DNA from: Candidatus Microgenomates bacterium
Lineage (GTDB): Bacteria > Patescibacteria > Microgenomatia > JADHYG01
DNA: 27,813 nt
Direction of reading: 5' to 3'
Assembly (NCBI GenBank): GCA_016782545.1
Contig: JADHYG010000008.1
Location: 1-27,813 of the forward strand
Shown here: positions 4,182 to 27,057 of the stretch, piece after piece
Layout: each line of letters opens with the position of its first letter
Numbering within the stretch: the first letter of the stretch is position 1
Notes under the pieces: model-generated
The model's database searches: none
What the model was told of the DNA's origin: nothing
What the model saw: the letters and a program-made list of their open reading frames with translations, nothing else
Program-made: the position numbers and the translations under genes

Positions 4182-4212
4182 AAAATTTTAAATTATATTC
4201 AGAAACCTTTTT

Positions 4213-4242
4213 CCAAATTTTCCGCTTAAGCGGAAAATTTGG
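4213..4242. repeat. 30-bp perfect palindrome upstream of the PaaX/Cas2-like gene
   Basis: Arms CCAAATTTTCCGCTT and AAGCGGAAAATTTGG are exact reverse complements. It ends 43 nt before the ATG at 4286. A near-identical copy lies after the gene at 5073-5102. Position suits an operator for the HTH protein it precedes; alternatively both are copies of a small palindromic repeat. Confidence 0.8.
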
Positions 4243-4285: not shown

Positions 4286-4978
4286 ATGAAAAACACAACA
4301 CCAAAAAACTTTAAAAAAGAATCAATTAAAGTAGAAAAAAGACTTCCACTTTCTGAAAAACACTTAAAAGAAATCTCTACTCTTCTTTATAATAAATATC
4401 AAAAAGAAGAAAGAAAAAGAAAATATGCTCCTGTTAAAGAGGTGCTTACGCTCTTGGCAAGGGCGGGCTTTTTAGCCATGGCATTAGTTGCTCCAAACAC
4501 AATTGTCCTTGCAAAAGAACTTTTTCCAGAAGAATCAGAATGGAAAAATTGGAAAAGATATAATCCATCTTATCTAAAAAGTACGCTGGCAAGACTTGAA
4601 AAGCAAAAAGAAGTAAAAATCACAGAAGAAAATGATCAACAAATTGTTAAACTCACCACGCGAGGAAAAGTTAAGTTATTAAAATATACTCTTAAAGAAT
4701 TAAAAATTAAAAAACCTAAAAGATGGGATGGTAGGTGGCGATTAATTATGTACGATATTCCTAAAAAATATAAAACCTCCCAGGAATTCTTTCGTACCAT
4801 GCTTAATTATCTTTCTTTCTATCCTTTTCAGAGAAGTGTTTACTTATTCCCCCATCCTTGTGAGGATGAAATCGAATACTTGCGGCAAATCTTAGGAATT
4901 GATAGATATGTAAGAATTTTAATTGTTGAAAAAATTGAGCATGATGAAGCTTTTCGTACTTATTTTGGACTAACTTAA
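4286..4978 (+). CDS. PaaX-like regulator with Cas2-like C-terminal domain
   Basis: 230 aa, soluble and Lys-rich. Residues about 45-130 look like a winged-helix DNA-binding domain (VKEVLTLLARAGFLAMALVA, then SYLKSTLARLEKQKEVKI, which fits a recognition helix and wing). Residues about 143-225 match the PaaX C-terminal/Cas2-type ferredoxin fold: RWDGRWRLIMYDIPKKYKTS, FYPFQRSVYLFPHPCEDEI, RYVRILIVEKIEHD. In Cas2 the Asp in the first strand (here in YDIP) binds metal. Such proteins are common in Patescibacteria and are often labelled PaaX regulator or Cas2. No cas1 or CRISPR array is nearby, so I favour a regulator. Near-identical palindromes flank it. Start chosen as the first ATG after the spacer; no Shine-Dalgarno site. 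Confidence 0.75.
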   Translation: MKNTTPKNFKKESIKVEKRLPLSEKHLKEISTLLYNKYQKEERKRKYAPVKEVLTLLARAGFLAMALVAPNTIVLAKELFPEESEWKNWKRYNPSYLKSTLARLEKQKEVKITEENDQQIVKLTTRGKVKLLKYTLKELKIKKPKRWDGRWRLIMYDIPKKYKTSQEFFRTMLNYLSFYPFQRSVYLFPHPCEDEIEYLRQILGIDRYVRILIVEKIEHDEAFRTYFGLT

Positions 4979-5072
4979 AAATCAACAATTTTTCTCATTT
5001 TTTTTCATTTTATCCGTTATTTTCTTACATTTTCTCAGTTATTTTCTTAATCTTTAAACCTATTTAAAACCT

Positions 5073-5102
5073 CCAAATTTTCCGCTTAAGCGTGAAATTT
5101 GG
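5073..5102. repeat. Second copy of the 30-bp palindrome
   Basis: Differs from 4213-4242 at two positions in the right arm (GTG in place of GGA), leaving a slightly imperfect palindrome. It lies between the convergent PaaX/Cas2-like and cupin genes, where it could end transcription from both sides, although U tracts are poor. The 12-mer GTTATTTTCTTA also occurs twice nearby (5016-5027 and 5038-5049). Confidence 0.75.
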
Positions 5103-8348: not shown

Positions 8349-9410
8349 CATTTTAAATCTTTTCCTTTTTTTTAGAGAAGAAATCACCCCTAACGCTATT
8401 AATGTAGAGATAATAGAACTACCGCCATAAGAAAGCAAGGGCAGAGTAATGCCAGTGATGGGAACAATGCCTAAGTTCATACCAATATTAATAAATATTT
8501 GCAATAAAAGTTGAGTGAAAACACCAATTGAAAAAAGAACAGGAAACAAATCTTTGTTGTTTTTAGCTACTCTTAGAATCTGCAGTAAAAGAATAAAATA
8601 ACAAATTAAAACAAGCGCTCCTCCAAAGAGTCCCAACTCTTCACAAAGAGAGGCAAAAATAAAATCAGTGTGAAATTCCGGTAAAAAATTTAAATGGGAT
8701 TGAGTACCATGACCCAAACCTTTTCCCAAAAACCGTCCTGAACCAACAGCAATCTTGGTTTGAATACTATGATAACTGGCAGTCTGAGAATATTGCTGAG
8801 GGTTTAAAAAAGAAAGAATTCTTAATTTTTGATAATCTTTTAAAAAACGCCAAAATACGGGAGTGGTTAAAAAACCAAAAACTAAAGAACTAAAAATATA
8901 GACTGGATTAAGACCAGCCGCGAGCATCATCACCAACCAAGTTCCTGAATATAAAATGGCACTACCAAGGTCTGGCTGTTTAAAAATTAAAATAAAGGGA
9001 ATCAGCATTAAAAAAAGATTTAAAAAAAAAGCTCGTGGTTTCCGAGGAGGAAAAATAGCAATTATTTGCGCAAAAGAGGCAATAAAAAGTGGTTTCACTA
9101 ATTCTGAAGGTTGAATTCTGAATCCAAAAAAAATTATCCAACGATGAGAACCTCTAATTTCAGGCCCTAAAAAAGAAAGTCCTAAAAAAAGAACTGACAA
9201 GATGTAAAGAGGAATGGCAAAAAATTTTAGAAAACCCTCAAAATCTAAGGTACTTAAAAGAAAAAATAAACCAACTCCGACGACAAAAAATAAAAGCTGA
9301 GACGAAAAAAGTTGAGAAGCAGTGCTTAAAATTAAAATTAAGCTCAATCCTGCCAAAAAAAGAATAGGAAGAAAAATTAACCAGTTGAAATTTTTAAAGA
9401 TTTTCCCCAT
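8334..9410 (-). CDS. rodA: SEDS peptidoglycan glycosyltransferase RodA
   Basis: 358 aa, about ten membrane helices. SEDS-family signatures are visible: GSHRWIIFFGFRIQPSELVK, KQPDLGSAIL, GLGHGTQSHLNFLPEFHTDF followed by IFASLCEELG, and the end PLLSYGGSSIISTLIALGVI. The conserved Asp in EFHTDFIF is the usual marker of active SEDS polymerases. In rods it extends side-wall glycan strands with a class B PBP, which is not in this window. Chosen as RodA rather than FtsW because a better FtsW lies at 19182-20348 in the murD-murG context. The start overlaps the ileS end by 34 nt, so the two are translationally linked. No Shine-Dalgarno site. Confidence 0.85.
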   Translation of the reverse strand: MGKIFKNFNWLIFLPILFLAGLSLILILSTASQLFSSQLLFFVVGVGLFFLLSTLDFEGFLKFFAIPLYILSVLFLGLSFLGPEIRGSHRWIIFFGFRIQPSELVKPLFIASFAQIIAIFPPRKPRAFFLNLFLMLIPFILIFKQPDLGSAILYSGTWLVMMLAAGLNPVYIFSSLVFGFLTTPVFWRFLKDYQKLRILSFLNPQQYSQTASYHSIQTKIAVGSGRFLGKGLGHGTQSHLNFLPEFHTDFIFASLCEELGLFGGALVLICYFILLLQILRVAKNNKDLFPVLFSIGVFTQLLLQIFINIGMNLGIVPITGITLPLLSYGGSSIISTLIALGVISSLKKRKRFKMLVIN

Positions 9411-12310
9411 GTTATTTTTTGAGCTAAAGTTTTCTTTTTAATATAATCTTCAAACTTTTCCGGCCAAGAAGGAGCATAAACCACGATTTTTTCATCTAGC
9501 TGACAACCTGTTTTCTTACGCAAGTTCTGAATTTTCCTTATTAATTCTCTTGCTTCTCCTTCAGCTTTAAGCTCTGAAGTAATTTTTGTATCAAATTTTA
9601 CTGATAATTCGCCCCTACCTTTCATCCATTTTATTTCTTTTATATTGAGCTCGTCTTTTATTAACTGCTCTAACTGACTTACATAATTCTTACTTCTTTC
9701 CGTCGTCCCACCATCCGAGGAGTCCATTAGGGCCACCTCGGAGGAGGAACTACCAAAATGTTCAAATTCATTTTTAATTGTTAATTGTTTTAACGGCTGG
9801 CGAACTTTAATTCCTGCTAACTTGCGGCTGGAATGTCCTAGCTCAATTATTTTTCTCACCTGCTCCATATCTGTTAAGAGTTTTTGATCAATCTTTCCTA
9901 TTTCTGACCAGTCTTGAAGATGAACAGATTCCTTGTTTGTTAAATTCTTATAAATTTCTTCAGTAATAAACGGAATAACTGGTGCACTAATCAGACAAAG
10001 TTGACTAAGCACATAATACAGGGTTTTTAAAGCATCTTTATCACCTTTATTAAATCTTTCTCTTGACCTTCTAATATACCATCGAGAAAGATCTTCAATA
10101 AATTCTCTAATCAAATGAACAGCTTGAGGAACATGATAAGCATCCATAAATTTACTGAATTCTTTGTTGAATTGATTGAGTCTTACCAATATCCATTGAT
10201 CCAAAATGGAGTCTGCGCATTTCGTTATTGTTCGAGCTTGTCGAGAACTTTCCTTGCAATTTGCTTCTCGACTTCCCCGCCGAGCGGGGTCGCTCGAAGA
10301 ATAACCGTGCAAATTGGCGAAGGTAATAAAATATTTATATGAATTCCAAAAAGGCAAAAGAACTGTTTTGACTTGCTCGGCTATTTCTTCACCTTTGGTA
10401 ATATTCATATCTCTACCCAACATAATGACGCTTCCCATAAGATACAATCTCAAGGCATCACCGCCATATTTTTGCAAAACTACTTTTTGATCAGGAAAAT
10501 TTCCATATGACTTACTCATTTTTCTCCCATCAGTTCCAGCCATCACCCCGGTGACAACAACATTTTTAAAACAATGTTTTTCCATTAAAGCATTGGAAAT
10601 AACATGCATCACATAAAACCAGGCTCTTACTTGAGCAACATATTCAATAATATAATCAGCTGGAAATGATTGTTCAAATTCTTTTTTATTTTCAAATGGA
10701 TAATGTCTTTGAGCATAAGGCATCGAACCTGATTCTACCCAGCAATCAAGAACTTCAGGAATTCTCTTCATCAACCCACCACACTTTTGACACTTAAAAA
10801 CAAGGTGGTCAACTCCAGAACGATGCAGATCAGTGACTTTTTCTCCGCTTAATTTCTCAATTTCTTTAATTGAGCCAACGACTTTTAATTCCTGACATTT
10901 TTGACACTCCCAAATAGGCATAATCGTGGCCCAATATCTGGTTCTGGAAATACACCAATCAGGAGCAGTTTCAATCCCCTTTTTAAATCGGCCATATTTA
11001 AAATGACTTGGCACCCAATTAATTTCTTTGTTTGTTTTTAAAAGCTGTTTTTTTAATCTTTTAACATTAATAAACCATGATTCCTGAGCTTTATAAATCA
11101 AAGGTGTTTCACAACGATAACAGTAAGGATAGCGATGAGTAATCGTTTCTTTTTTAAAAAGCAGGCTTCGATTTTTTAAGTCCTTAATAATTTCCCTATC
11201 AGCATCTTTTACATAAACTCCAGCCCATTTTTTAATCTCATCAATAAACTTTCCCTCGTCATTAACAGTAAACATCAAAGTCAAACCAAAATGTTTGCCC
11301 ATTTCTGTATCAATTTCGCCAAAACCAGGCGCAGAGTGGACAACGCCTGTTCCCTCTTCCATATTAACCATGCCTTCAAAGGTATATATTTTAAAATCAT
11401 CTTTATTGGCAGGAATAAAAGTATAAAGCGGCTCATAATCAAGCCTCAACAATTCTTTTCCTTTAAATTCAGCGACGATTTTATATTTTTTGTCTGAAAT
11501 TACCTCTTTTAATCGCTTCTTCGCTAAAATGTAATGATTATCTTGTTTTTCAATTTTTACTTTGACATATATTTCGTTTTCATCAACCACTAAAGCTCTA
11601 TTTGACGGCAATGTCCAGGGAGTGGTTGTCCAGGCCAAAACAAAAGAATCTTTGAATTTTCCATTTTTCAACTTAAATTTAATAGTCACCGCCGGATCCT
11701 TCATCATTGCATAAGAATTATCCATGGCAATTTCAAAATTAGAAATAGGGGTAGAACAGCGAGGACAAAAAAGCGAAACCCGATTACCTTTATAAATTAA
11801 GTTTTTGTCATAGAGCTGTTTAAAAACCCAAATCACTGTTTCCATATAGGAAAGATCCATGGTTCGATAAGCATTATCAAAATCAACCCAGCGAGCGATA
11901 TGATCTACATACCATTTCCACTCAGAAGAAGTTTCCTCCACATACTGCCTGCACTCGGCAATGAATTTATTGATGCCAAATTTTAAAATGTCTTTTCTAT
12001 TTTTAAGACCAATTTTTTTCTCAACCTTATTTTCAATCGGCAAGCCATGACAATCCCAACCCCAAACCCTTCTTACTCGCTTTCCTTTCATTGTTTGATA
12101 TCTAGGAATAATATCTTTGGCAATGCTAGGTAAAAGCGTGCCGTAATGAGGAAGGCCGGTCACAAAAGGAGGACCATCATAAAAAGAATAGGCGTTTTCT
12201 TTTGATCTTTGTTTAATTGATTTTTCAAAAATTTTGTTTTTTTTCCAAAAACGCAAGATTTTTTCTTCTTGCTCGGGAAAATTTGGTCTTGGATCCACTG
12301 ATTTAAACAT
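9377..12310 (-). CDS. ileS: Isoleucyl-tRNA synthetase, type 2 (eukaryote-like)
   Basis: 977 aa, class Ia synthetase charging tRNA-Ile. HIGH-type motif PHYGT (residues 54-58), KMSKS at 597-601, editing (CP1) region with TTTPWTLPSNRALVV, and Cys pairs (CPRC, CYRC, CQKC) likely binding zinc. The layout (GWDCHGLPIENKVEKKIG, FEGMVNMEEGTGVVH) fits type 2 enzymes, which are often naturally resistant to mupirocin. Two in-frame insertions lie in the C-terminal half: residues about 671-694 between catalytic core and anticodon-binding domain, and about 853-865. Both match palindromic elements. A strong promoter ends 8 nt before the ATG. A structured 204-nt spacer separates it from ftsZ. Confidence 0.96.
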   Translation of the reverse strand: MFKSVDPRPNFPEQEEKILRFWKKNKIFEKSIKQRSKENAYSFYDGPPFVTGLPHYGTLLPSIAKDIIPRYQTMKGKRVRRVWGWDCHGLPIENKVEKKIGLKNRKDILKFGINKFIAECRQYVEETSSEWKWYVDHIARWVDFDNAYRTMDLSYMETVIWVFKQLYDKNLIYKGNRVSLFCPRCSTPISNFEIAMDNSYAMMKDPAVTIKFKLKNGKFKDSFVLAWTTTPWTLPSNRALVVDENEIYVKVKIEKQDNHYILAKKRLKEVISDKKYKIVAEFKGKELLRLDYEPLYTFIPANKDDFKIYTFEGMVNMEEGTGVVHSAPGFGEIDTEMGKHFGLTLMFTVNDEGKFIDEIKKWAGVYVKDADREIIKDLKNRSLLFKKETITHRYPYCYRCETPLIYKAQESWFINVKRLKKQLLKTNKEINWVPSHFKYGRFKKGIETAPDWCISRTRYWATIMPIWECQKCQELKVVGSIKEIEKLSGEKVTDLHRSGVDHLVFKCQKCGGLMKRIPEVLDCWVESGSMPYAQRHYPFENKKEFEQSFPADYIIEYVAQVRAWFYVMHVISNALMEKHCFKNVVVTGVMAGTDGRKMSKSYGNFPDQKVVLQKYGGDALRLYLMGSVIMLGRDMNITKGEEIAEQVKTVLLPFWNSYKYFITFANLHGYSSSDPARRGSREANCKESSRQARTITKCADSILDQWILVRLNQFNKEFSKFMDAYHVPQAVHLIREFIEDLSRWYIRRSRERFNKGDKDALKTLYYVLSQLCLISAPVIPFITEEIYKNLTNKESVHLQDWSEIGKIDQKLLTDMEQVRKIIELGHSSRKLAGIKVRQPLKQLTIKNEFEHFGSSSSEVALMDSSDGGTTERSKNYVSQLEQLIKDELNIKEIKWMKGRGELSVKFDTKITSELKAEGEARELIRKIQNLRKKTGCQLDEKIVVYAPSWPEKFEDYIKKKTLAQKITWGKSLKISTG
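9708..9744. mobile_element. 37-bp palindromic element, in-frame inside ileS
   Basis: CCACCATCCGAGG...ACCTCGGAGG with inverted arms TCCGAGG (9714-9720) and CCTCGGA (9736-9742). It matches 33 of 37 positions at 18569-18605 in murG, in the same orientation and reading frame. It encodes SSEVALMDSSDGG. Confidence 0.8.
10231..10298. mobile_element. 68-bp palindromic element, in-frame inside ileS
   Basis: Outer arms TTCGAGC (10231-10237) and GCTCGAA (10292-10298); inner arms GTCGAGAA (10240-10247) and TTCTCGAC (10265-10272); then a CCCCGC/GCGGGG hairpin. It adds SSSDPARRGSREANCKESSR to IleRS. GC content and Ser/Arg codon use differ from flanking ileS. Confidence 0.75.
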
Positions 12311-12318
12311 GTGAGTTT

Positions 12319-12347
12319 ATTAAACCAAAAAATCTCACCTTTCTCAA
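12319..12347 (-). promoter_or_regulatory. ileS promoter
   Basis: TTGAGA (12342-12347), 17 nt, extended -10 TG-G-TTTAAT (12319-12324). The ATG is 8 nt beyond. Confidence 0.7.
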
Positions 12348-12363
12348 CTTAAGTTTTACCCCA

Positions 12364-12395
12364 GCACCAGCCCCGACGTGACGTCGGGACGGTGC
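12364..12395. repeat. GC-rich nested palindrome in the ftsZ-ileS spacer
   Basis: Outer arms GCACC and GGTGC around CCCGACGT-G-ACGTCGGG. The segment ACGTCGGGAC also ends the element at 5931-6026, so the two are probably related. Confidence 0.65.
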
Positions 12396-12424
12396 AGGGT
12401 TTCGCCTCGGATTTTAGATAGAAA

Positions 12425-12444
12425 CCACCAGCTTTGACTGGTGG
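12425..12444 (-). terminator. Hairpin downstream of ftsZ
   Basis: Perfect 7-bp stem CCACCAG/CTGGTGG with a 6-nt loop, followed on the minus strand by TTTCTATCT. Possible ftsZ terminator together with the hairpin at 12448-12472. Confidence 0.45.
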
Positions 12445-12447
12445 AGG

Positions 12448-12472
12448 CTCACTTTTTTGAGAAAAAAGTGAG
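12448..12472 (-). terminator. 11-bp stem hairpin downstream of ftsZ
   Basis: CTCACTTTTTT, 3-nt loop, AAAAAAGTGAG: a perfect stem 43 nt after the ftsZ stop. The T run is inside the stem, so it is not a textbook terminator. The GTGAG/CTCAC motifs recur next to the ileS start (12311-12340). Confidence 0.45.
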
Positions 12473-12514
12473 ATCTAGATAATAATGTCAGTTTTAAATT
12501 GCATCTTAATTCTT

Positions 12515-13606
12515 TTACTGATTTTGCCTTAAAAAAGCAGGAATCTCCCATTTATCTTCTTTTTGAGGAGTTTCTTCAAAAACATTATCAACCCCTAATT
12601 TTTCCTGCTCTTCTTTTTCTAAAGGAGCAACTAAATCTTTAAGCCGCCTTCTTGCTTCATCAAAACCCGTGGCAATCACCGTTATCTTAACTTGATCAAC
12701 AAATTTTTCATCAATCGTAGCCCCAAAAATTATATTAGCATCAGGATCAACAGACTGAGAAATAACTTTTGCCGCTTCATCAACTTCGCTCATGGTTAAA
12801 TCTTCGCCGCCAACAATGTTGAAAAGAACTCCTTTAGCTCCATCAATTTGAATATCAAGTAAAGGAGACGAAATTGCTTGACGAGAGGCTGTTTGAGCTC
12901 TATTTTCTCCTACGCCAACACCAATTCCCATTAAAGCAGAACCAGCATTAGACATGATGCTTCTCACATCAGCAAAATCAACATTGATAAGACCGGGAGT
13001 GGTAATTAAATCAGAAATTCCTTGGACTCCTTGACCTAAAACAGCATCAGCCATTCGAAAAGCTTCTAGAAGAGTCATTTTCTTATCAATTACTTCCAAA
13101 AGTTTTTGATTGGGAATAACAATTAAAGTATCAACTTTTTCTTTTAATTGAGCAATGCCTTCTTCTGCAACCACCATGCGCCTCGTCCCTTCAAATTGAA
13201 AAGGCTTAGTCACTACCGCCACTGTCAAGGCTCCTTGTTCTTTAGCTACTTCAGCAATAATTGGTGTGGCTCCAGTTCCTGTGCCGCCACCTTCACCACA
13301 AGTTAAAAAAACCATGTCCGTACCTAAAAAAAGCTCTTTTAATTTTTCCCTTGACTCTTCAGCCGCTTGGCCTCCCAAATCTGGACTGCCTCCTGCTCCC
13401 AAACCGCGAGTTATTTTTTCTCCAATTTGAACTTTAGTCGGCACCTGAGAAGAAAGAAGGGCTTGAGCATCACAATTAACAGCAATAAACTCTACCCCAT
13501 TAACCTCTTCTGATTTAATCATTGAAGAAACAGCATTACCACCACCACCACCAATACCAACCACTTTTATTCGGGCAAATTTTGAAACATCAGGTTTAAT
13601 TAACAT
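12515..13606 (-). CDS. ftsZ: Cell division GTPase FtsZ
   Basis: 363 aa, tubulin-like. N-terminal [11 protein letters not shown], tubulin signature GGGTGTG at residues 106-112 (in [13 protein letters not shown]), and the T7/synergy segment [11 protein letters not shown] with the catalytic Asp. A short linker leads to the C-terminal peptide EIPAFLRQ, which in this family docks FtsA and other anchors. It polymerises into the Z ring with the FtsA encoded just upstream. Spacer to ftsA is 36 nt. Unlike its neighbours it has a promoter giving a real leader of about 24 nt, with only a weak GAGA before the ATG. Confidence 0.98.
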
Positions 13607-13636
13607 AGAAGTTTCTCGGGCAGGATAACATTTAAA

Positions 13637-13665
13637 ATTATATCACGGCAGAAATGACTTAGCAA
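13637..13665 (-). promoter_or_regulatory. ftsZ promoter at the end of ftsA
   Basis: TTGCTA (13660-13665, inside the ftsA tail), 17 nt, extended -10 TG-A-TATAAT (13637-13642). It ends 30 nt before the ftsZ ATG and would boost FtsZ independently of ftsA. Confidence 0.65.
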
Positions 13666-14932
13666 GATCTAAGAATTTTTTGGCAACTCCTTTTACAGGA
13701 ATTTTTTTAAAGAATTTTCCAAATTGAGAAAAAGAAACACCCTTTTCTTTTGTTTCAGCCTTAACTCCATAAACAATTAAGCCAACCGCGGTTGAAAAAG
13801 AAGGGGCTAAAATTTCATCAACCAGGCCGGTTATTCCTTGAGGAATGCCAATTCTCGCCGGCATAGCAAGATTTCGTTTGGCCGACTCAAGAGCACCGGC
13901 TGTTTTTGCTCCTCCTCCGGTAATCACTATTCCCGCAGGAGTCATTCCTCCAAAACCACTTTTTTTAATCTGAAGTCCTACCATGGTAAAAATTTCGTCT
14001 AATCTTGGTTTAATTATTCCTTCAATTAAGGTCTTTCGGGAAATCTTCCTAAGTTTTTCAGGAAGCTCAAGAGAAGTTAAATCCACCTCTTCTTCTTCTA
14101 TCTTTTTATTCTTTTCTTTTTCTGAAGGTAAAACCTTTTTTTCCTTTTTTTCTCCTAAAAATAGTTTAATTTTTTCGGCACTGTCTAAAGAAACTCTAAG
14201 TCCTATTGCTAAATCATTGGTAACATTCTTAGCACCAACTGGGATGACAGTTGAATAAGAAAGCGCCCCCTCAATATAAATAGCAATGTCTGTTGTTCCG
14301 GCGCCAATATCAACTACAACCACACCAAGTTCTTTTTCTGTCGGAGATAAAACCGCTTCTGAAGAAGCCAATCCGCCAAAGACAAAACCTGATATATCGA
14401 CACCATTTTCACCAACACACTTTTCCAAATTTCTTAAGGAAGTTCCTCCTCCCATAACTAAATGAGTATCCACTTCAAGTCTAACTCCAGTCATTCCCAC
14501 CGGATCAAGAATACCTTCTTGACCATCAACAATAAAACCACGAGGTAAAACATGAATAATCTCATATGATGAAGGAAGAGAAATTGCTTTTGCCGCTTCT
14601 ACCACTCTTAAAATATCGTTTTCTGTTATCTCTTGTTTTGGCTCTGCCACGGCTACCACGCCATGAGAATTTTGGGATTTTATATGAACGCCGCCGACTG
14701 AAATAAAAGCAGAAGAAACAGAATAACCAGCCATACGCTCTGCTGCTTCCAGACTTTCTAAAATTGGCCCGGTTGTTTCCTCAATATCAACAACCTGACC
14801 CTTCTTAATGCCTTTGCTAGGCACTGAAGATACACCAATAATGCTCTTTTCTTCATTAGAAATACTGGCAACAATAGTCACCACTTTAGAAGTACCAACA
14901 TCAATACCAACAACAACTTCATTCTTTGCCAT
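13643..14932 (-). CDS. ftsA: Cell division protein FtsA
   Basis: 429 aa, actin-like ATPase that ties FtsZ to the membrane. Phosphate-1 motif VVGIDVGTSKVVTIVA at the N-terminus, SHS2/1C domain (VSSAFISVGGVHIKSQNSHG), phosphate-2 VVVDIGAGTTDIAIY and the late GIVITGGGAKTAGA adenosine motif. A charged Lys/Glu stretch (GEKKEKKVLPSEKEKNKK) lies in domain 2B. The C-terminal helix GVAKKFLDLAKSFLP is amphipathic and is the usual membrane anchor. The start is 4 nt after the ftsQ stop, so the two are probably co-translated; no separate promoter seen. Confidence 0.96.
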   Translation of the reverse strand: MAKNEVVVGIDVGTSKVVTIVASISNEEKSIIGVSSVPSKGIKKGQVVDIEETTGPILESLEAAERMAGYSVSSAFISVGGVHIKSQNSHGVVAVAEPKQEITENDILRVVEAAKAISLPSSYEIIHVLPRGFIVDGQEGILDPVGMTGVRLEVDTHLVMGGGTSLRNLEKCVGENGVDISGFVFGGLASSEAVLSPTEKELGVVVVDIGAGTTDIAIYIEGALSYSTVIPVGAKNVTNDLAIGLRVSLDSAEKIKLFLGEKKEKKVLPSEKEKNKKIEEEEVDLTSLELPEKLRKISRKTLIEGIIKPRLDEIFTMVGLQIKKSGFGGMTPAGIVITGGGAKTAGALESAKRNLAMPARIGIPQGITGLVDEILAPSFSTAVGLIVYGVKAETKEKGVSFSQFGKFFKKIPVKGVAKKFLDLAKSFLP

Positions 14933-14936
14933 TTTT

Positions 14937-15665
14937 TCAAAAAGTCAAAACTGGCTTTTCAAAACGTAAATCTATTTTTTTTGGCCACTTACCTTCAATC
15001 TTAAATTTCTTTGCTAAAACTCCTAATGTATAAATTATTTTCTCTTTTTCCTTCTCTAAACCTATTAAGATCACTGTATCTTGAGAAAGAGTTAATTTTA
15101 ATGTTTTTCTGGTCTCATCTATTTCAAATTTTGAACCTAAAACGCTTTCTTCCAAAGTCAAAATTATACCAAGGGCAAAATCCACATTATTATTCTTAAT
15201 CCTATCACCAATTTTAAAATTTTGCAAGCCAGCAATAATAATTGGCAGGCTTTTTTCCTCATCTGTTTCTCTAAGAATTACTCCCTCATCATCTATTAAT
15301 AAAACGGTTGAAGAATTGGGGTTAAAAATCGCTGCCCTTTCTTTTCTTTTTTCAATTTTAATTAAAATCTGAAAGGGAAATTCTTTTTCAATTTCTATTT
15401 CTTTTAAAATTGGGTTTTCCTTTTCTATTTCCTCTTCCCATTTGTCCTTGTCTAAAAAAAGAAGGTTCTGATCACCAAGTTTTTCTACACCTGACAAGGT
15501 TTTTTCTTCTAGGCCAATAACTTTTATGGTTTTAACGATAAAAAAATTGGTGATAAGGTTATAGACTCCAAAGATCAAAAAAGCTATCCCAAAAAAAATG
15601 AAAGTCCTTTTTAACAACGGCTTTTTAAATCTTCTTTTTTTAAAATTAAAAACTCTTTGTCGCAT
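14937..15665 (-). CDS. ftsQ: Cell division protein FtsQ/DivIB
   Basis: 242 aa. Basic cytoplasmic tail (KKRRFKKPLLKR), one membrane helix (about 24-43), then a POTRA domain starting FIVKTIKVIGLEEKTLSGVE and a beta domain ending in KIDLRFEKPVLTF. In the divisome FtsQ/DivIB bridges FtsB/FtsL to the septal synthase. Identification rests on topology, the POTRA-like start, the LRF...P end and its place before ftsA; sequence identity in this family is always low. An extended -10 ends 9 nt upstream of the ATG. Confidence 0.88.
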   Translation of the reverse strand: MRQRVFNFKKRRFKKPLLKRTFIFFGIAFLIFGVYNLITNFFIVKTIKVIGLEEKTLSGVEKLGDQNLLFLDKDKWEEEIEKENPILKEIEIEKEFPFQILIKIEKRKERAAIFNPNSSTVLLIDDEGVILRETDEEKSLPIIIAGLQNFKIGDRIKNNNVDFALGIILTLEESVLGSKFEIDETRKTLKLTLSQDTVILIGLEKEKEKIIYTLGVLAKKFKIEGKWPKKIDLRFEKPVLTF

Positions 15666-15674
15666 GTTGTAAAT

Positions 15675-15683
15675 ATTTTATCA
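15675..15683 (-). promoter_or_regulatory. ftsQ extended -10 promoter
   Basis: TG-A-TAAAAT on the minus strand (-10 at 15675-15680), 9 nt before the ATG. The -35 position (TTTTAC) is weak. It lies back to back with the plus-strand promoter at 15716-15744. Confidence 0.55.
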
Positions 15684-15715
15684 TGAAAGTCATAGTAGTA
15701 AAATCTCTATCTTGT

Positions 15716-15744
15716 TTGACAGAATGAGTAAATATTCATAAAAT
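15716..15744 (+). promoter_or_regulatory. Promoter for the GT2 gene at 15756
   Basis: TTGACA (15716-15721), 17 nt, TAAAAT (15739-15744). The ATG is 11 nt after the -10 box. Confidence 0.8.
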
Positions 15745-15755
15745 TAACATCATCA

Positions 15756-16424
15756 ATGATTAAGTCCAGAAATTTAAAAATCTCGGCTGTTGTTCCTGTT
15801 TATAACAATCAGGCCACAGTTAAAAAAGTGGTTCAAGTTCTTCTCAATTGTCATTTCTTAGAAAAAGTCGTTGTTATAGATGATTATTCTCAAGATTTAT
15901 CCTTAAAAATCTTAAAAAGCTTCAACCATAAAAAACTTCAACTCATCCCCCTTCCTTTTAATCATGGCAAGGGAGCGGCCATTGAAAAAGCTCTTGACTC
16001 AATAAAAAACCAAATAGTCATGATTGTTGATGCTGATCTTAGTAAGTTAAGAAAAAAACACTTAATTAATCTTAAAAATAGCTTTATCGATAGTAATGCC
16101 GACATGGTCATTGCGGCTCGAAAGGGTAAATTGCAGTTCAAACTCATTGATTGTTTAAGCGGAGAGAGGATTTTTTTCAAAAAAAATATTCAGTCAGTTC
16201 GCCCTCTTCTCAAAAAAGTAAATAATGGCTTTGAGCAAGTTGTTAACTTTGCCCATAAAAATAAAAAGATTAAGTCAATTTACTCATATAATATCGGTCA
16301 TATCTTAAAACTTAGTCGTTATAAAAATAAAGAAATATATAAAATTCCTCTTAATTATGCTCAAGAAGGCTGGGATCTTCTCAAAACCACCCTTCTTATT
16401 AAATCTCAATCAAGATTACGGTAA
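15756..16424 (+). CDS. GT2 family glycosyltransferase
   Basis: 222 aa, soluble, single GT-A domain. SAVVPVYNNQATVKKVVQVL, then Asp42-Asp43 in VVVIDDYSQD for nucleotide binding, NHGKGAAIEKAL and DAD at 92-94 (metal-binding DxD). This is the layout of dolichol-phosphate-mannose synthase-like enzymes that move a sugar to a lipid carrier. There is no membrane segment, so it would act on the cytoplasmic side. It is a diverged paralogue of the N-terminal half of the next gene, in which DDGS is intact; here it is DDYS. Each of the two genes has its own TTGACA promoter. Both interrupt the minus-strand division cluster. Confidence 0.85.
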   Translation: MIKSRNLKISAVVPVYNNQATVKKVVQVLLNCHFLEKVVVIDDYSQDLSLKILKSFNHKKLQLIPLPFNHGKGAAIEKALDSIKNQIVMIVDADLSKLRKKHLINLKNSFIDSNADMVIAARKGKLQFKLIDCLSGERIFFKKNIQSVRPLLKKVNNGFEQVVNFAHKNKKIKSIYSYNIGHILKLSRYKNKEIYKIPLNYAQEGWDLLKTTLLIKSQSRLR

Positions 16425-16425
16425 G

Positions 16426-16454
16426 TTGACAATAATCACCACTCCGCTTAAGAT
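16426..16454 (+). promoter_or_regulatory. Promoter for the GT2/hydrolase fusion gene
   Basis: TTGACA (16426-16431, starting 1 nt after the upstream stop codon), 17 nt, TAAGAT (16449-16454). The ATG is 8 nt beyond. Confidence 0.7.
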
Positions 16455-16462
16455 ACTAAACC

Positions 16463-17992
16463 ATGGAAGTCACGGCGCTTGTTCCTTGTTATAACGAAGA
16501 ACAAACAATCAAAAATATTCTTGAAGTCTTAATTGATTCTCCTTTAATTACAAAGGTTGTCGTTATTGATGATGGATCTACCGACCAATCATTGAAAATT
16601 ATTAAAAGATATCAAGGAAAAAAATTAGAAACTGTTTTTTTAACAAAAAACAGAGGCAAAGGAGAGGCTGTAAAAGAAGGCTTAAAAAAAGTGAAAACAA
16701 AAGCTGTTTTTCTTTGCGACGCCGATCTTCAAGGTTTAAAAAACTTTCATATTAAACTTTTGGTAAAAACCTTTCAAAAAAGAAAGCAACAAGTGGTGGT
16801 GGGGTTAACAGAAAAGAAATTGAGCAAAATAACTCATCCTCTTCGTGAAAATCTTCTTCTTTTAATTTCCGGCCAGAGAATTTATTTACTTTCCCACCTT
16901 AAGAAAATCACTAAAAACCCTCTTTCTTCACAATGGGGCTTAGAAATCTATGCCAACTATTACTGTCGAAAAAACAAAATAAAAATTACCAAACTTCTTT
17001 TAAAAGGAGTTAATGATTCTCCAAAATGGAAAAAAGGGCATGGAATAAAACCCGCTCTTAAAGAGGCATTTGATATTCCTTTAAGATATTTTCTCATCTA
17101 TTGTCTATATAATCCTTATCAAATTTTCTCCTCGCAATTACATTCTAAAAAAAGAAGAAGAGGGAAATTTAAAATCAGAAAAATAAAAATTAATAAAAAA
17201 ACAATCAACTTTGCCCAAATAGGCAAAGGAGAACCATTACTTTTAATCCATGGCTGGGCAAATAATTGGGAAGGCTGGATTCCGTTGGTGCCGACTTTAA
17301 AGAAAAAATATACTCTTTATTTGATCGACCTACTTGGATTTGGCGACTCCAGTCCTTTAAAAAATTATTCAATTGAAAATCAGACAAAATATGTTTCTTT
17401 ATTCTTAGAAAAATTAAAAATCTACCCCAAGGCAATTATTGGCGTTTCTATGGGAAGCTTGATAGCAGGAGCAATAGGCAAGAATTATCCCCAAAGAACA
17501 CAAAGCATTATTCTTATTGGCGCTCCTTTTAAAACAAAAAGCCTCACCCTAGCCGCTAAGGCGTTTGAAAAAAGCCTAGCTATGATCAATGGCAGAAAAA
17601 AAGCGGAAACAGCCCTGAAAAAAATTGTTGAAACTAGAGTAACAGCCTACCTTTTAGCTAAATATATTAATATGCACAAGTTTAATAAATTTTTGATTGA
17701 TGCTTATGGAATGATTGGCAAGAAAAAAATGACTAAAGAAGCGTTTGTGCAAATGGGTTTATCTGGAGCAAGACTCAGATTAGAAAAAGTTTTAGATAAT
17801 TGTCAATTGCCAGTATTTTTTATTTATGGAGCTCAAGATAAAATTATTCCTTTAAAACAAGCCAAAAAAATACTTGAAGGCAAAAAAGGCAATTTTTCTT
17901 TTGCTTCTGTTCCTTTAGCCGGCCACGTTGTTCCCTGGGAAAAACCAAAAAAAGTCGCTTCTTTAATCAAAAAATTTCTTAAAGATATTTAG
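16463..17992 (+). CDS. GT2 glycosyltransferase fused to an alpha/beta hydrolase
   Basis: 509 aa. Residues 1-220: GT2 domain with EVTALVPCYNEEQTIKNILE, VVIDDGSTDQSLK, NRGKGEAVKEGL and DAD at 86-88. A basic linker (KKRRRGKFKIRKIKINKK) joins it to an alpha/beta hydrolase from about residue 245: oxyanion-type HG at His263 (LLLIHGWANNW), nucleophile Ser329 in GVSMGS, probable acid Asp459 in YGAQDKIIP, and His488 in AGHVVPW, a complete triad. The pairing suggests one step that adds a sugar and another that removes or moves an acyl group, perhaps on a glycolipid; the substrate is unknown. No frameshift is seen at the junction, so it is a real fusion. The stop overlaps the murG end by 4 nt on the other strand. 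Confidence 0.85.
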   Translation: MEVTALVPCYNEEQTIKNILEVLIDSPLITKVVVIDDGSTDQSLKIIKRYQGKKLETVFLTKNRGKGEAVKEGLKKVKTKAVFLCDADLQGLKNFHIKLLVKTFQKRKQQVVVGLTEKKLSKITHPLRENLLLLISGQRIYLLSHLKKITKNPLSSQWGLEIYANYYCRKNKIKITKLLLKGVNDSPKWKKGHGIKPALKEAFDIPLRYFLIYCLYNPYQIFSSQLHSKKRRRGKFKIRKIKINKKTINFAQIGKGEPLLLIHGWANNWEGWIPLVPTLKKKYTLYLIDLLGFGDSSPLKNYSIENQTKYVSLFLEKLKIYPKAIIGVSMGSLIAGAIGKNYPQRTQSIILIGAPFKTKSLTLAAKAFEKSLAMINGRKKAETALKKIVETRVTAYLLAKYINMHKFNKFLIDAYGMIGKKKMTKEAFVQMGLSGARLRLEKVLDNCQLPVFFIYGAQDKIIPLKQAKKILEGKKGNFSFASVPLAGHVVPWEKPKKVASLIKKFLKDI

Positions 17993-19182
17993 AAAGCAAT
18001 TTTTTCCAAAATGTCAACAATTTTTTCGGCGGCGTTGAGATCTACTAATTTTTTCCCTTTTTCAGCATTTTTCTTATATTCATCAATGTTTTGTATTAAT
18101 GATTCAATATATTGATACAAAACTTGACCAGTTAATTTTTCTTGAGGCAAGATTTTGGCTGAACCGAGATTTTTGAGAATTTGAGCATTTTTTTCCTGCT
18201 CCCCTGCCCCTGCCCAAGGAAGAGGAATTAAAATCGCTGGTTTACCCAAAGCTAAAAGTTCAGTCATGGTATTGGCTCCGGCTCGCGAAATAACTAAGTC
18301 AGCATTATTTAATACCCAGCCAATATCTTCCAATTCCACAAACTTAGTCAAATAATATCTTTTTCTTAATCTTGTCTCGAGCCTTGAGCCTCGAGCCTCG
18401 AGCAGTTTATAGTCTCTATAAACTTTTGAGTCGCCACATTGGTGAATAACGCGATATTTTTCCAAAAGCCGAGGTAAAATATCTAGTACAACCTCATTAA
18501 TACTGTGGGCACCAAGACTACCACCGGTTATATAAATAAGAGGAAAAGATTTGCACTTTTTAAAACTTCCACCATCCGAGGAATCCCTTCGGGCTACCTC
18601 GGAGGTGAAAAAGCGCAAATTTTTAGTAAGAGGTAATTTTCCCTCTGATAGTTGATTGTTAAAGATCTCTCGCCTAACCGGATTGCCGGTTAAAACTATT
18701 TTTTCTTTAGGAAAGTTTTTAACAGTTTCTGGCCAGGAAAGACAAATCTTTTTAGCAAAAAAAGCAATGATTTTATTGGCCAATCCGCTAGTCATTGTCT
18801 GTTCATGAGTAATAATAGGAATTCTCAATAACCAACCAACAATAACAACTGGAAAAGCAATATAGCCGCCAAAAGAAAGAATTATATCAGGGCTTGTTTT
18901 TTTAATAACAAGAAAACTCTGAATTAATCCTAAGGGAATTTTGAACAAAGAAAAAATCGTGTAACGAGTGAATTTTCGCTGAAATCTACCGGTTTTTAAG
19001 TCAAAAAAAGGCAGTTGCCGTTTTTTAATAATTCTATATTCCAATGAAAGAACCTTGTCTCCTTCCAATGGATATTTTCGACCCACAAAGAAAATTTCCC
19101 ACCTGTTTCTTTTTTCAAGCTCTTCTATCACCGCTAAAGCAGGAGAAAAATGTCCGCCAATAATTAAGATTTTTTTAGTCAT
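17989..19182 (-). CDS. murG: UDP-GlcNAc:lipid I GlcNAc transferase MurG
   Basis: 397 aa, longer than the usual 350-370. Makes lipid II from lipid I on the inner membrane face. N-terminal KILIIGGHFSPALAVIEEL (the Gly-rich GGHxxPAL loop), central PLIYITGGSLGAHSINEVVL, and ISRAGANTMTELLALGKPAI with LPWAGAGEQEKNAQIL for UDP-GlcNAc. ATG 19182 is chosen because it overlaps the ftsW stop (TGATG); the TTG just before it is less likely. The extra length comes from two in-frame insertions at residues about 193-205 (TSEVARRDSSDGG) and 260-270 (LLEARGSRLETRLRK), both made of repeat DNA. Probably translated with ftsW. Confidence 0.95.
   Translation of the reverse strand: MTKKILIIGGHFSPALAVIEELEKRNRWEIFFVGRKYPLEGDKVLSLEYRIIKKRQLPFFDLKTGRFQRKFTRYTIFSLFKIPLGLIQSFLVIKKTSPDIILSFGGYIAFPVVIVGWLLRIPIITHEQTMTSGLANKIIAFFAKKICLSWPETVKNFPKEKIVLTGNPVRREIFNNQLSEGKLPLTKNLRFFTSEVARRDSSDGGSFKKCKSFPLIYITGGSLGAHSINEVVLDILPRLLEKYRVIHQCGDSKVYRDYKLLEARGSRLETRLRKRYYLTKFVELEDIGWVLNNADLVISRAGANTMTELLALGKPAILIPLPWAGAGEQEKNAQILKNLGSAKILPQEKLTGQVLYQYIESLIQNIDEYKKNAEKGKKLVDLNAAEKIVDILEKIAF
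18376..18404. repeat. CTCGAGCCT-type tandem repeat inside murG
   Basis: Units of CTCGAGCCT/TGAGCCTCGAGC repeat about three times and encode LLEARGSRLE in MurG. Its GC content is unlike the flanking gene. Length change in this unit would alter MurG. Confidence 0.65.
18569..18605. mobile_element. 37-bp palindromic element, in-frame inside murG
   Basis: CCACCATCCGAGG...ACCTCGGAGG with arms TCCGAGG (18575-18581) and CCTCGGA (18597-18603) and an inner CCC-TTC-GGG stem. Differs from the ileS copy (9708-9744) at 4 of 37 positions, and is read in the same frame. Confidence 0.8.
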
Positions 19183-20348
19183 CAATTCACTCTTTGACGA
19201 GAAATATTAAATAAAATACCCATACCGACAAAAGTTATTAATAAACTTGAACCGCCATAAGATAAAAGAGGAAGAGGAGCGCCTGTCAAAGGAAGAAGAA
19301 CAACCATCGCCGAAAGATTAATGATGACCTGAATAGCAAAACCAGCTGTAATGCCTACCGCTAGAAATCTACCAAAACGATCAGGGGCTCTTTTGGCAAT
19401 CGAAAAGCCACGATAAATAATAAATAAGAAAAGTAAAATAAGAATAAAAGCACCAAAAAAACCAAATTCTTCGCCAACAATGGCAAAAATAGAATCAGTG
19501 GTTGCCTCGGGTAAAAAAAGATGCTTTTGTCTTGATTTGCCAATACCAACACCCGTCAACCCTCCAGAACCCAAAGATAATAAAATCTGACGAATGTGAT
19601 AAGAGGCTCCTTGCGGATCAGTGCTGGGATCAAAAAAAGTCACTAACCGCCGAAAACGATAAGGCGATATTAAAGCAAGTCCTAAAAAAGAAAAAAGTCC
19701 CAAAGGGATTAAAAGAAAAAAATGACTAATTGGACTTTCAGAAACAAAATAAATCACTATGGCCGTAGCAGCAATAATAACGGTCGTTCCTAAATCAGGC
19801 TCTAATACCACCAATCCCAAAATAATACCCAATAAAAATAAAAAAGCGATTAAACGGCCTTTTTCTTTAGAAGCAAACCAAGCTGAAAGATAAACAGTCA
19901 AAGTCAATTTTGCCAGTTCTGCTGGTTGAAAAGAAAAAAGTCTTAAATTAATCCAGCGGGAAGCACCTTTAACTTTAATCCCAATTCCAGGAATAAAAAC
20001 TGCTCCTAAAAAACAAATCGTAGAAAAAAGAAGAGGAACAGCCAAATTATAAAGATGATGATAGTCCAAAAAAGAAAAAACCAATAAAGCAACAATTCCT
20101 ATTCCCAACCACTTGCTTTGTTCTCTGACAAAATAATATTTATCACCAAATTCTTGATATGCAGAAACAGTTGAAGCTTCAAAAATCATTAATAATCCAA
20201 AAAGAGATAAAAAAACAACAATCAAAATCAATAAATAATCTCTTTCTTTTTTTTGCTTTTTAAGAACAGCTCTTTTTTTTCTTTTTGTTTCTTTTTTAGT
20301 GAGATTAGGGATTTTAAATGATATTTTTTTAAATTTTAGCCGCTTCAT
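19182..20348 (-). CDS. ftsW: SEDS septal peptidoglycan polymerase FtsW
   Basis: 388 aa from ATG 20348, about ten membrane helices after a very basic 40-residue cytoplasmic tail. Signatures: KGASRWINLRLFSFQPAELAK, EPDLGTTVI, GVGIGKSRQKHLFLPEATTD followed by SIFAIVGEEFG, and PLLSYGGSSLLITFVGMGIL. In the family it polymerises lipid II at the septum with FtsI/PBP2x. Named FtsW rather than RodA because it lies between murD and murG. A longer reading from 20420 is possible but would run 92 nt into murD; the 20348 start overlaps murD by 20 nt and gives a normal length. Confidence 0.92.
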   Translation of the reverse strand: MKRLKFKKISFKIPNLTKKETKRKKRAVLKKQKKERDYLLILIVVFLSLFGLLMIFEASTVSAYQEFGDKYYFVREQSKWLGIGIVALLVFSFLDYHHLYNLAVPLLFSTICFLGAVFIPGIGIKVKGASRWINLRLFSFQPAELAKLTLTVYLSAWFASKEKGRLIAFLFLLGIILGLVVLEPDLGTTVIIAATAIVIYFVSESPISHFFLLIPLGLFSFLGLALISPYRFRRLVTFFDPSTDPQGASYHIRQILLSLGSGGLTGVGIGKSRQKHLFLPEATTDSIFAIVGEEFGFFGAFILILLFLFIIYRGFSIAKRAPDRFGRFLAVGITAGFAIQVIINLSAMVVLLPLTGAPLPLLSYGGSSLLITFVGMGILFNISRQRVN

Positions 20349-25513: not shown

Positions 25514-25539
25514 AGTGACTAGTGACTAGTGACTAGTGA
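25514..25539. repeat. 7-bp tandem repeat at the murF/aminotransferase junction
   Basis: AGTGACT occurs three times plus AGTGA. It holds the murF stop codon and ends at the next start codon. On the minus strand a TAG falls at 25535, 25528 and 25521, one in each frame. Confidence 0.85.
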
Positions 25540-27057
25540 TTTAAGATAATTGGCGGCTCCTTTTCCTTCAAACAAAATCACTCCCTTTTGGATTTTGGAT
25601 AAATCTTTTTTAAAAGTTAGTTTTCCTTTAGCACCTTTAAGAAGGTCTTGATAATTATTTTCATTGGTTAAAACAATTTGATCACAAATTTCTCCTGCTT
25701 TTTTGCCTATTTTTTGATGAACTCGCGCAGAAGCTTTTCCTAATTCAATAATTGGCTGAAAAACAAAAATCTTTTGGCCTTTAAAAGTTTTTAAAAAATC
25801 AAGCGCCGCCAAGACTCCTTGAGGATTGCTGTTATAAGTGCTGTTAATTAAAACCAAATCTTTCTTTTTAATAATTTCCATTGTTTGAGACAGCATCTCT
25901 AATTTCTCAATTGCTCGAGCGATTTTTTCAGACGGTATGCCTAATTCTTCAGCAACTATTTTAGCCATCTGAATATTTTCTAAAAAGTGTTTTCCAACTA
26001 AATTAATTTTAAGATTGTTTTTTTCTTTTTCAGTAATTTTTACTTTTCTACCCATTTTATTTGCTTTTTTGGCCATTTCAAGACAATATTTGTTATAACC
26101 ATTAAAAACAGCCAGGCCATTTTTCGACAAAGCTTCAATCAACTCGAATTTAGCTTGAATAGTATTTTCCAAACTGCCAAAAAGAGCCTGGTGCTGTTCA
26201 TTAAGACCAGTAACAATGCCTATTTTGGGTTTAACTAGGTCGCAAAGCGCTTTGATTTCTCCAACTTTATAAGCGCCCATTTCGCAAACAAAAATTTGCT
26301 GGTCTTGATGAAGATCTTGAAGAATAGTTTTAGCAATACCAATGGCGGTATTAAAATTGGCTGGTGTTTTTAAAACTTTAAATTTTGAAGCAAGAATTTG
26401 GGCTAGAAATTCTTTAGTGGAACTTTTTCCGTAACTGCCGGTAATACCAATCACTAAAAGATTAGGATGATCTTTAATTTTCTGCTTGGCTTTTTGAATA
26501 ATAAATTGCTGATAAATCTTGGCCGGAATATTGGTCAAAATAACAAAAAGAGAAACGGTTAACAATAATAGTCGGTCAAAAATTAAAAGTTTTACTAGTA
26601 AGTAACCCTGAGCAAAAATTATTCCTAAACAAAACAAAAAAACCAAAGCCATAATTAAAACTGCTTTAAAAGTAAAATCTGGCCATTTCCATTCTTTTTT
26701 AAAAAGCTGTCTAAGATAAAAAAAGGCTTCAATCAAAAAAGAGGTCAAAACCAGCCAACTCATGTCATTCTGAACTTGTTTCAGAATCTCTATCATGAAT
26801 CCATTTCGGAATCTAGATGCTGAAATAAATTCAGCATGACTCTTACTCCACAAAAGCAAAGAAGCAAAAAATAACCAAAGCCATTTAAAAACCTCTTTTT
26901 TGCCCAATAAAAGCTTGCGTCCCTGTTGGATGTTTAGATGAATTAAGAATCGATCTAAGCGATACTCTTTCCTTTGCCACCAAAAAAGATAGAATATAGT
27001 ATTTTTTAAAATGACGATAAAAAAAGCAATGATCAATAAAATCTCTAATTTTCCCAT
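25519..27057 (-). CDS. murF: MurF-like Mur ligase with N-terminal membrane domain
   Basis: 512 aa. Residues 1-180 carry about four or five membrane helices, not found in classical MurF. The ligase follows: ATP loop GITGSYGKSST from residue 204 (Lys211), TPANFNTAIGIAKTIL, CEMGAYKVGEIKALCDLVKP, TGLNEQHQALFGSLENT and INSTYNSNPQGVLAALDFL, typical of the MurF side of the family. MurF adds D-Ala-D-Ala to the UDP-MurNAc tripeptide. Membrane-tethered MurF-like ligases are known from this type of genome; a different substrate cannot be excluded. Residues 73-98 (HAEFISASRFRNGFMIEILK...) are a palindromic element in a loop between helices. AAGAGG 9 nt upstream is one of the few Shine-Dalgarno sites in the window. 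Confidence 0.85.
   Translation of the reverse strand: MGKLEILLIIAFFIVILKNTIFYLFWWQRKEYRLDRFLIHLNIQQGRKLLLGKKEVFKWLWLFFASLLLWSKSHAEFISASRFRNGFMIEILKQVQNDMSWLVLTSFLIEAFFYLRQLFKKEWKWPDFTFKAVLIMALVFLFCLGIIFAQGYLLVKLLIFDRLLLLTVSLFVILTNIPAKIYQQFIIQKAKQKIKDHPNLLVIGITGSYGKSSTKEFLAQILASKFKVLKTPANFNTAIGIAKTILQDLHQDQQIFVCEMGAYKVGEIKALCDLVKPKIGIVTGLNEQHQALFGSLENTIQAKFELIEALSKNGLAVFNGYNKYCLEMAKKANKMGRKVKITEKEKNNLKINLVGKHFLENIQMAKIVAEELGIPSEKIARAIEKLEMLSQTMEIIKKKDLVLINSTYNSNPQGVLAALDFLKTFKGQKIFVFQPIIELGKASARVHQKIGKKAGEICDQIVLTNENNYQDLLKGAKGKLTFKKDLSKIQKGVILFEGKGAANYLKSLVTSH
26764..26840. mobile_element. 77-bp palindromic element, in-frame inside murF
   Basis: Ends GTCAT and ATGAC. Two hairpins: TTCTGAACTTGTTTCAGAA and GCTGAAATAAATTCAGC. 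It encodes HAEFISASRFRNGFMIEILK then QVQND. Peptides of the form (H/S)EFISxS...EILKQVQND are familiar to me from repeat insertions in many unrelated bacteria, similar in idea to Rickettsia palindromic elements; this is memory, not a search. Confidence 0.8.

Follow-up and report, generated by a model that had tools for sequence, protein, structure and literature searches.

REP/TIR elements are described, in the available part of a 2013 survey (PMC3733652), as short palindromes that occur singly, as dimers or in groups; most are intergenic and some lie within ORFs, including those of tRNA synthetases and the UvrD/REP helicase. The same part of the survey describes tyrosine transposase genes flanked by TIRs, some of which are self-complementary and belong to repeated families. 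Rickettsia palindromic elements, at 105-146 bp, are found in frame in many unrelated genes whose proteins tolerate them, according to the accessible sections of PMC10969869 and PMC2229807, and those of the latter also place ERIC/RU-1 and the 107-bp Correia MITEs within genes, with TA ends and target-site duplications. The window considered here is the whole analysed stretch of 27,813 nucleotides from Candidatus Microgenomates bacterium (contig JADHYG010000008.1), and it carries two short palindromes within the reading frames of ileS and murG (Table 1).

A preliminary description of the window had reported a 37-bp pair matching at 33 of 37 bases in the same orientation and frame, and recomputation confirmed this: positions 9708-9744 and 18569-18605 are identical at 33/37 bases, and both copies share strand (minus) and frame. 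Allowing up to three mismatches, a search with the consensus pattern gave exactly two matches in the window and none in 100 dinucleotide shuffles, which rules out a chance origin of the pair. Folded alone, the 56-base minus strands gave z-scores of -2.9 for the ileS copy and -4.7 for the murG copy. The arms originally recognised within the 37-mer stand, but the murG hairpin is longer than had been described and is bounded by the outer arms TTTGCGCTTTTT/AAAAAGTGCAAA. A second, different palindrome lies in frame in ileS, where the fold of 10215-10312 has a z-score of -4.4, and the length of the corresponding IleRS insert varies among aligned relatives. No Rfam family matched within the window at gathering scores, and a known RNA family was accordingly rejected as the identity of the elements.

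Table 1 Features of the window that bear on the palindromic elements
Feature	Coordinates	Strand	Evidence
Palindromic element in ileS, peptide SEVALMDSSDGG	9706..9750	-	R1 61.8 bits, but an R1 training copy
Palindromic element in murG, peptide SEVARRDSSDGG	18567..18611	-	R1 67.8 bits, but an R1 training copy
ileS, host gene	9377..12310	-	Pfam tRNA-synt_1, 3.9e-127
murG, host gene	17989..19185	-	Pfam Glyco_tran_28_C, 1.2e-32
Extended murG hairpin, element in the loop of the TTTGCGCTTTTT/AAAAAGTGCAAA palindrome	about 18549..18620	-	Fold z -5.0
Second, different palindromic insert in ileS (IleRS residues 674-690)	10241..10291	-	pLDDT < 50; own hairpin
MurG low-confidence inter-domain linker, element-bearing (residues 194-208 of P0001)	18559..18603	-	AlphaFold2 pLDDT < 50
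IleRS low-confidence loop, element-bearing (residues 852-870)	9701..9757	-	AlphaFold2 pLDDT < 50

Comparison with orthologs indicates that the two peptides are inserts. The MurG element peptide is common to the window protein and P0002 (80% identical), and neither the other 28 full-length relatives aligned nor a partial one has it. Several of the relatives that do not have it bear other inserts at the same linker, and a ...DSSEV... stretch in the MurG linker of P0006 and P0007 may, by its sequence, be a relative of the element. For IleRS, P0121 (82% identical) carries the element peptide, reading SEVARRDSSDGG, and 24 other aligned relatives lack it. ALMD in the window ileS copy stands in place of the ARRD of P0121, a substitution that would fit drift. 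These empty orthologs of MurG and IleRS rule out a conserved protein motif as the reading of the shared peptide. LeuRS carries differing inserts at differing sites from genome to genome, one of them antisense, and those sites are empty in other genomes.

The sole filled and empty pair at the DNA level is pyrF of G010 and G015, where an in-frame difference of 57 bases takes in the element with its flanks; divergence between the two genes is too great for the element ends to be placed. Twelve of 15 pyrF loci were aligned, the other three having no ORF by the motif used: eight are of the short form, one shows the far side only, and G003, G005 and G010 have inserts. The insert of G005 (L140) is a different palindrome in the same loop, which suggests that this loop may be an insertion-tolerant hot spot. 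The preliminary prediction that relatives would lack these residues thus holds in most of the MurG and IleRS proteins aligned and likewise in LeuRS and pyrF, and the copies together with the empty orthologs support its reading of a small element that enters coding DNA without breaking the frame.

AlphaFold2 models built with homolog alignments had a mean pLDDT of 87.5 for MurG and 84.2 for IleRS. It had been proposed that the sites be mapped on structures, and both inserts fall in loops predicted with low confidence. The MurG segments below 50 are the element (194-208) and the adjoining linker (181-188); those of IleRS are the element (852-870) and the second insert (674-690). The low pLDDT suggests that the insert loops are disordered, with the qualification that few aligned sequences there would also lower the confidence. 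Sequence similarity to solved structures is interrupted close to the inserts, the best IleRS stretch being 3-846 and those of MurG 9-175 and 217-395.

The prediction of further copies was borne out in relatives. An exact 27-position pattern, which diverged copies would escape, gave four matches across the genomes of 84,980 species, under the titles Patescibacteria, Gottesmanbacteria (two) and Microgenomates; the reversed pattern gave none in 4 and in 15 genomes. The exact pattern had no match in viral contigs and one 66-base copy had none among 50,697 phage and 72,556 plasmid records, and a phage or plasmid origin was ruled out on these searches.

A covariance model, R1, was then built on 11 copies from seven genomes. 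The R1 stem comprises 15 pairs; all of the training copies show a T.T mismatch in it and a purine-purine one. Three pairs are changed on both sides, a number reached in 57 of 500 shuffles, and the covariation score exceeded all 500 shuffles, the sequences being related to each other. Two genomes show a compensatory change in the arms, from TCCGAGG/CCTCGGA to TCCCAGG/CCTGGGA. Of 15 genomes from one order, 10 had R1 matches (E <= 0.001) with at most 150 candidates scored per genome; G003, G004, G012 and G013 among them were sources of training copies. G003 has 82 copies, G016 has 15 and the other eight positive genomes have 1-6, so that most of the 15 hold few or none. In a sample of the phylum, searched under stricter filters, 11 of 379 genomes matched at E <= 1e-6, the training copies among these positives coming from G003 only; negative genomes may hide missed copies because 16 candidates per genome were scored.

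The palindrome arms are kept across distant Patescibacteria. Beside the stem the consensus reads AARA on its left side and RAGG on its right (49 of 50 copies); the flanks conserved in G003 are not clear in the two window copies. The model spans in G003 are 42-85 bases, and whole elements are somewhat longer. Judged by sequence, the window copies belong to a palindromic element family of Microgenomates/Patescibacteria that comprises several subfamilies. The earlier remark that no family of this kind had been named in Patescibacteria agrees with the titles and abstract openings in the literature, which show none, subscription papers lying mostly outside the search; the words Patescibacteria and Microgenomates are absent from the available part of PMC6006769.

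G003 is a fragmented MAG of ~1 Mb. Rescanning the 43 loci around matches gave 88 matches, of which 82 were kept as non-overlapping; the true count may be 80, since two pairs, located where contigs C56 and C129 end, appear to be a single locus. Fifty-three of the 82 copies lie within stop-to-stop frames 150 or more codons long, compared with 2183 of 2719 positions drawn at random from these loci (p 0.001), so the elements are mildly depleted in genes, which contradicts an enrichment there. The coding copies occupy all six frames (18, 13 and 5 on the element strand; 2, 8 and 7 on the other). The shared frame of the two window copies therefore stands for that pair and fails as a property of the family. 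The element consensus can be read without a stop codon in each of the six frames, and 25 of the 88 matches are open in all six, as are 3.6% of letter shuffles. The model spans of the coding copies show no bias towards multiples of three (18/53), and an in-frame length is therefore claimed for the pyrF pair alone.

The 53 coding copies fall in 44 ORFs. A Pfam family (E <= 1e-5) was assigned to 31 of the 40 that were scanned; hosts identified in this way include OMP decarboxylase (pyrF), DHQ synthase (aroB), shikimate kinase, a ClpB-type ATPase, TsaD, UvrD, RecJ, a formyltransferase and a carbamoyltransferase.

Palindromes are also nested in palindromes. The terminal loop is expanded by other sequence in 27 of the 82 G003 copies; this sequence is by eye often self-complementary, and some of it recurs among different copies. 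A preference for insertion into hairpin loops is not claimed from these long-loop copies because R1 would miss inserts in the arms. Several intergenic G003 copies (for example L047, L048 and L058) lie within an outer TTTTGCACTTTT/AAAAGTGCAAAA palindrome, some as opposed pairs, and its arms resemble the outer arms of the window murG copy.

At 26745-26860 of the window, within a Mur-ligase gene on the minus strand (25519-27057), the peptide HAEFISAS...RNGFMIEILKQVQNDM is encoded with a weak fold (z -2.1). It looks like another in-frame palindromic insert, presumably of a kind that occurs in other bacteria. The MurG protein P0004 has a similar insert, HPEFIS...RNDT. On the plus strand, 399-2993 encodes a large protein in which four spaced copies of an MWY-terminated motif are followed by a stretch that is lipase-like by reading of the sequence alone.

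Candidate movers were sought among Y1 (HUH) transposases. Y1_Tnp (PF01797) scored above the cut-off in 11 of the 15 order genomes, with the highest counts in G003 (13) and G016 (8), the two genomes richest in elements. Y1 and R1 counts are correlated over the 15 genomes (Spearman 0.78, p 6e-4), and also when the top two are removed (0.65, p 0.016); these and the following statistics ignore the relatedness of the genomes. By presence, nine order genomes have both, one (G007) has the element and no Y1 gene, two have Y1 alone and three have neither, a distribution that falls short of significance (p 0.077). Across the phylum sample, Y1_Tnp was found in 11/11 element-positive genomes versus 155/368 others (one-sided p 9e-5).

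Fifty Y1 loci, some overlapping, were fetched from the order genomes, and 46 were readable. A CACC...GGTG palindrome stands on both sides in 10 of the 46, against a background in which 237 of 3779 random 360-base windows contain one. In G003, CACCTCCGAGGTG flanks the Y1 gene at L190 on either side, and CACCTGGAAGGTG flanks the one at L195 on one side. Among the left halves of the 88 G003 matches no strings are commoner than these two, with 21 and 17 occurrences, and CACCTGGAAGGTG occurs 13 further times as its reverse complement. The Y1 gene of G009 (L133) likewise has CACCTCCGAGGTG on both sides, and the 18-base string ATAACACCTCCGAGGTGA is common to this locus and to the G009 element L078. 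CACCTCCGAGGTG is absent from the 15 readable Y1 loci (20 fetched) of seven other element-positive genomes. The REP-associated tyrosine transposase of NCBIfam (REP_Tyr_transpos) was the only match for six of six Y1 proteins, at 46-59 bits and below the 80-bit cut-off, and H-F-H and YIHLNP can be read in Y1 protein sequences.

A further gene in the window has palindromic flanks. Near-identical 31-base palindromes at 4212-4242 and 5072-5102 flank a PaaX_M/Cas2-like gene (4286-4978), an arrangement that resembles the terminal repeats of a small transposon. This PaaX-like gene was dropped as a mover, none of the 11 readable relative loci (of 20) being flanked on both sides.

Set against the described systems, the family shares with REPtrons and TIRtrons, as presented in the part of the literature available, short palindromes, single, dimeric or grouped, of which some lie in ORFs (tRNA synthetases and UvrD-type helicases included), and, in G003 and G009, Y1 genes with palindromic flanks. 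Y1 flanks drawn from a repeated family, as in a TIRtron, were seen at L190, at L133 and on one side of L195, and not at the 15 loci of the seven other genomes. The hosts differ, being Patescibacteria; loops here often carry other sequence; and 53 of 82 G003 copies are in ORFs, unlike the mostly intergenic REPs in the accessible text of PMC3733652. The GTAG and CGTC superfamilies of REPs are likewise high-copy short palindromes, as are the 82 copies of G003, but neither tag stands beside the stem here, where AARA and RAGG are found.

Rickettsia palindromic elements, in so far as the available descriptions go, resemble the family in being palindromes inserted in frame into unrelated protein genes with empty orthologs. 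They differ in size (105-146 bp against the 57 bp of pyrF), in phylum, the exact-pattern matches here being titled Patescibacteria, Gottesmanbacteria or Microgenomates only with diverged copies missed, and in that all six frames are used here and a candidate transposase is at hand. With ERIC/RU-1 and Correia MITEs, again from partial sources, the likeness lies in non-autonomous elements whose open frames are fused to genes. IS200/IS605 MITEs, for their part, insert 3' of a short fixed target and make no duplication. Since the GTAG/CGTC tag is lacking and neither the size nor the host is that of Rickettsia, we regard the family as a variant of the REP/TIR kind that belongs to neither group. In effect the elements agree with the Rickettsia-like reading first proposed; in mechanism they stand nearest to REP/TIR elements and their tyrosine transposases.

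The family is repeated, its copies are inserted in frame where orthologs are empty, the host frames stay open otherwise, six frames are used and the loops have low predicted confidence. The elements are probably non-autonomous palindromic mobile elements that spread in Microgenomates-type Patescibacteria, coding genes included, and are mobilised in trans by RAYT-like Y1 (HUH) transposases, some of which in these genomes have flanking palindromes of the CACC...GGTG type that the element also shows. The palindrome would fold in single-stranded DNA, a RAYT-like Y1 enzyme could recognise the half-palindrome or hairpin in this form, and the enzyme would copy or move the element in trans. Frame-keeping inserts in surface loops would then survive by drift; as the consensus is stop-free in six frames, inserts of a multiple of three into such loops would be tolerated and persist. 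We put forward more tentatively, as a possibility we would not yet favour, that this is a RAYT-type single-strand transposase system whose hairpin elements are adapted to coding DNA, being stop-free in six frames, tolerated in many housekeeping proteins and nested in the loops of other palindromes.

The elements could also be mobile by a route other than the Y1 genes found, through an unknown or lost transposase, phage or host hairpin repair, with the Y1 link reflecting repeat-richness or shared ancestry. The 15 readable Y1 loci with no exact flank match point this way, as do the two of five element-negative order genomes that have Y1 and the one element-positive genome that does not, relatedness being uncorrected. 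The exact flank matches within the same genome in G003 and G009, and the 11/11 versus 155/368 of the phylum sample, argue against such a route, which we consider unlikely. That the palindromes are functional signals kept by selection, such as DNA uptake sequences or RNA hairpins, and are in genes by accident would agree with arms conserved over distant Patescibacteria and with the covariation of the palindrome; it is improbable given the empty ortholog sites, the use of either orientation and of six frames, the patchy distribution (11/379 genomes at the strict threshold) and the change between ALMD and ARRD in ileS.

Selection on the added peptide itself, for example for interaction or regulation, would account for its being kept between the window species and P0002 or P0121. 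Six frames yield unrelated peptides, however, the loops have low predicted confidence and the host proteins are unrelated, which makes this very improbable. An artefact of assembly or binning is scarcely credible: G003 is a fragmented MAG and the contig-end pairs of C56 and C129 do look like one locus, yet these inserts recur site for site in proteins of other contigs, the frames are intact, and one structure fits 11 copies from seven genomes.

Strongly reduced genomes are expected to shed repeats; that of G003, at ~1 Mb, nonetheless has 53 copies in open frames, in genes that by Pfam include pyrF, aroB, uvrD, recJ and tsaD. The family is another case of protein-coding palindromes, here with a candidate transposase. 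We know of no mover of the in-frame palindromes in Rickettsia, and the tentative RAYT-type system adapted to coding DNA, if true, would provide a testable enzyme for in-frame palindromes. In such a system the small Patescibacteria proteomes would also go on gaining disordered peptide loops. An odd peptide that recurs in Patescibacteria proteins can be such an insert, a caution for alignments, phylogenies and structure work.
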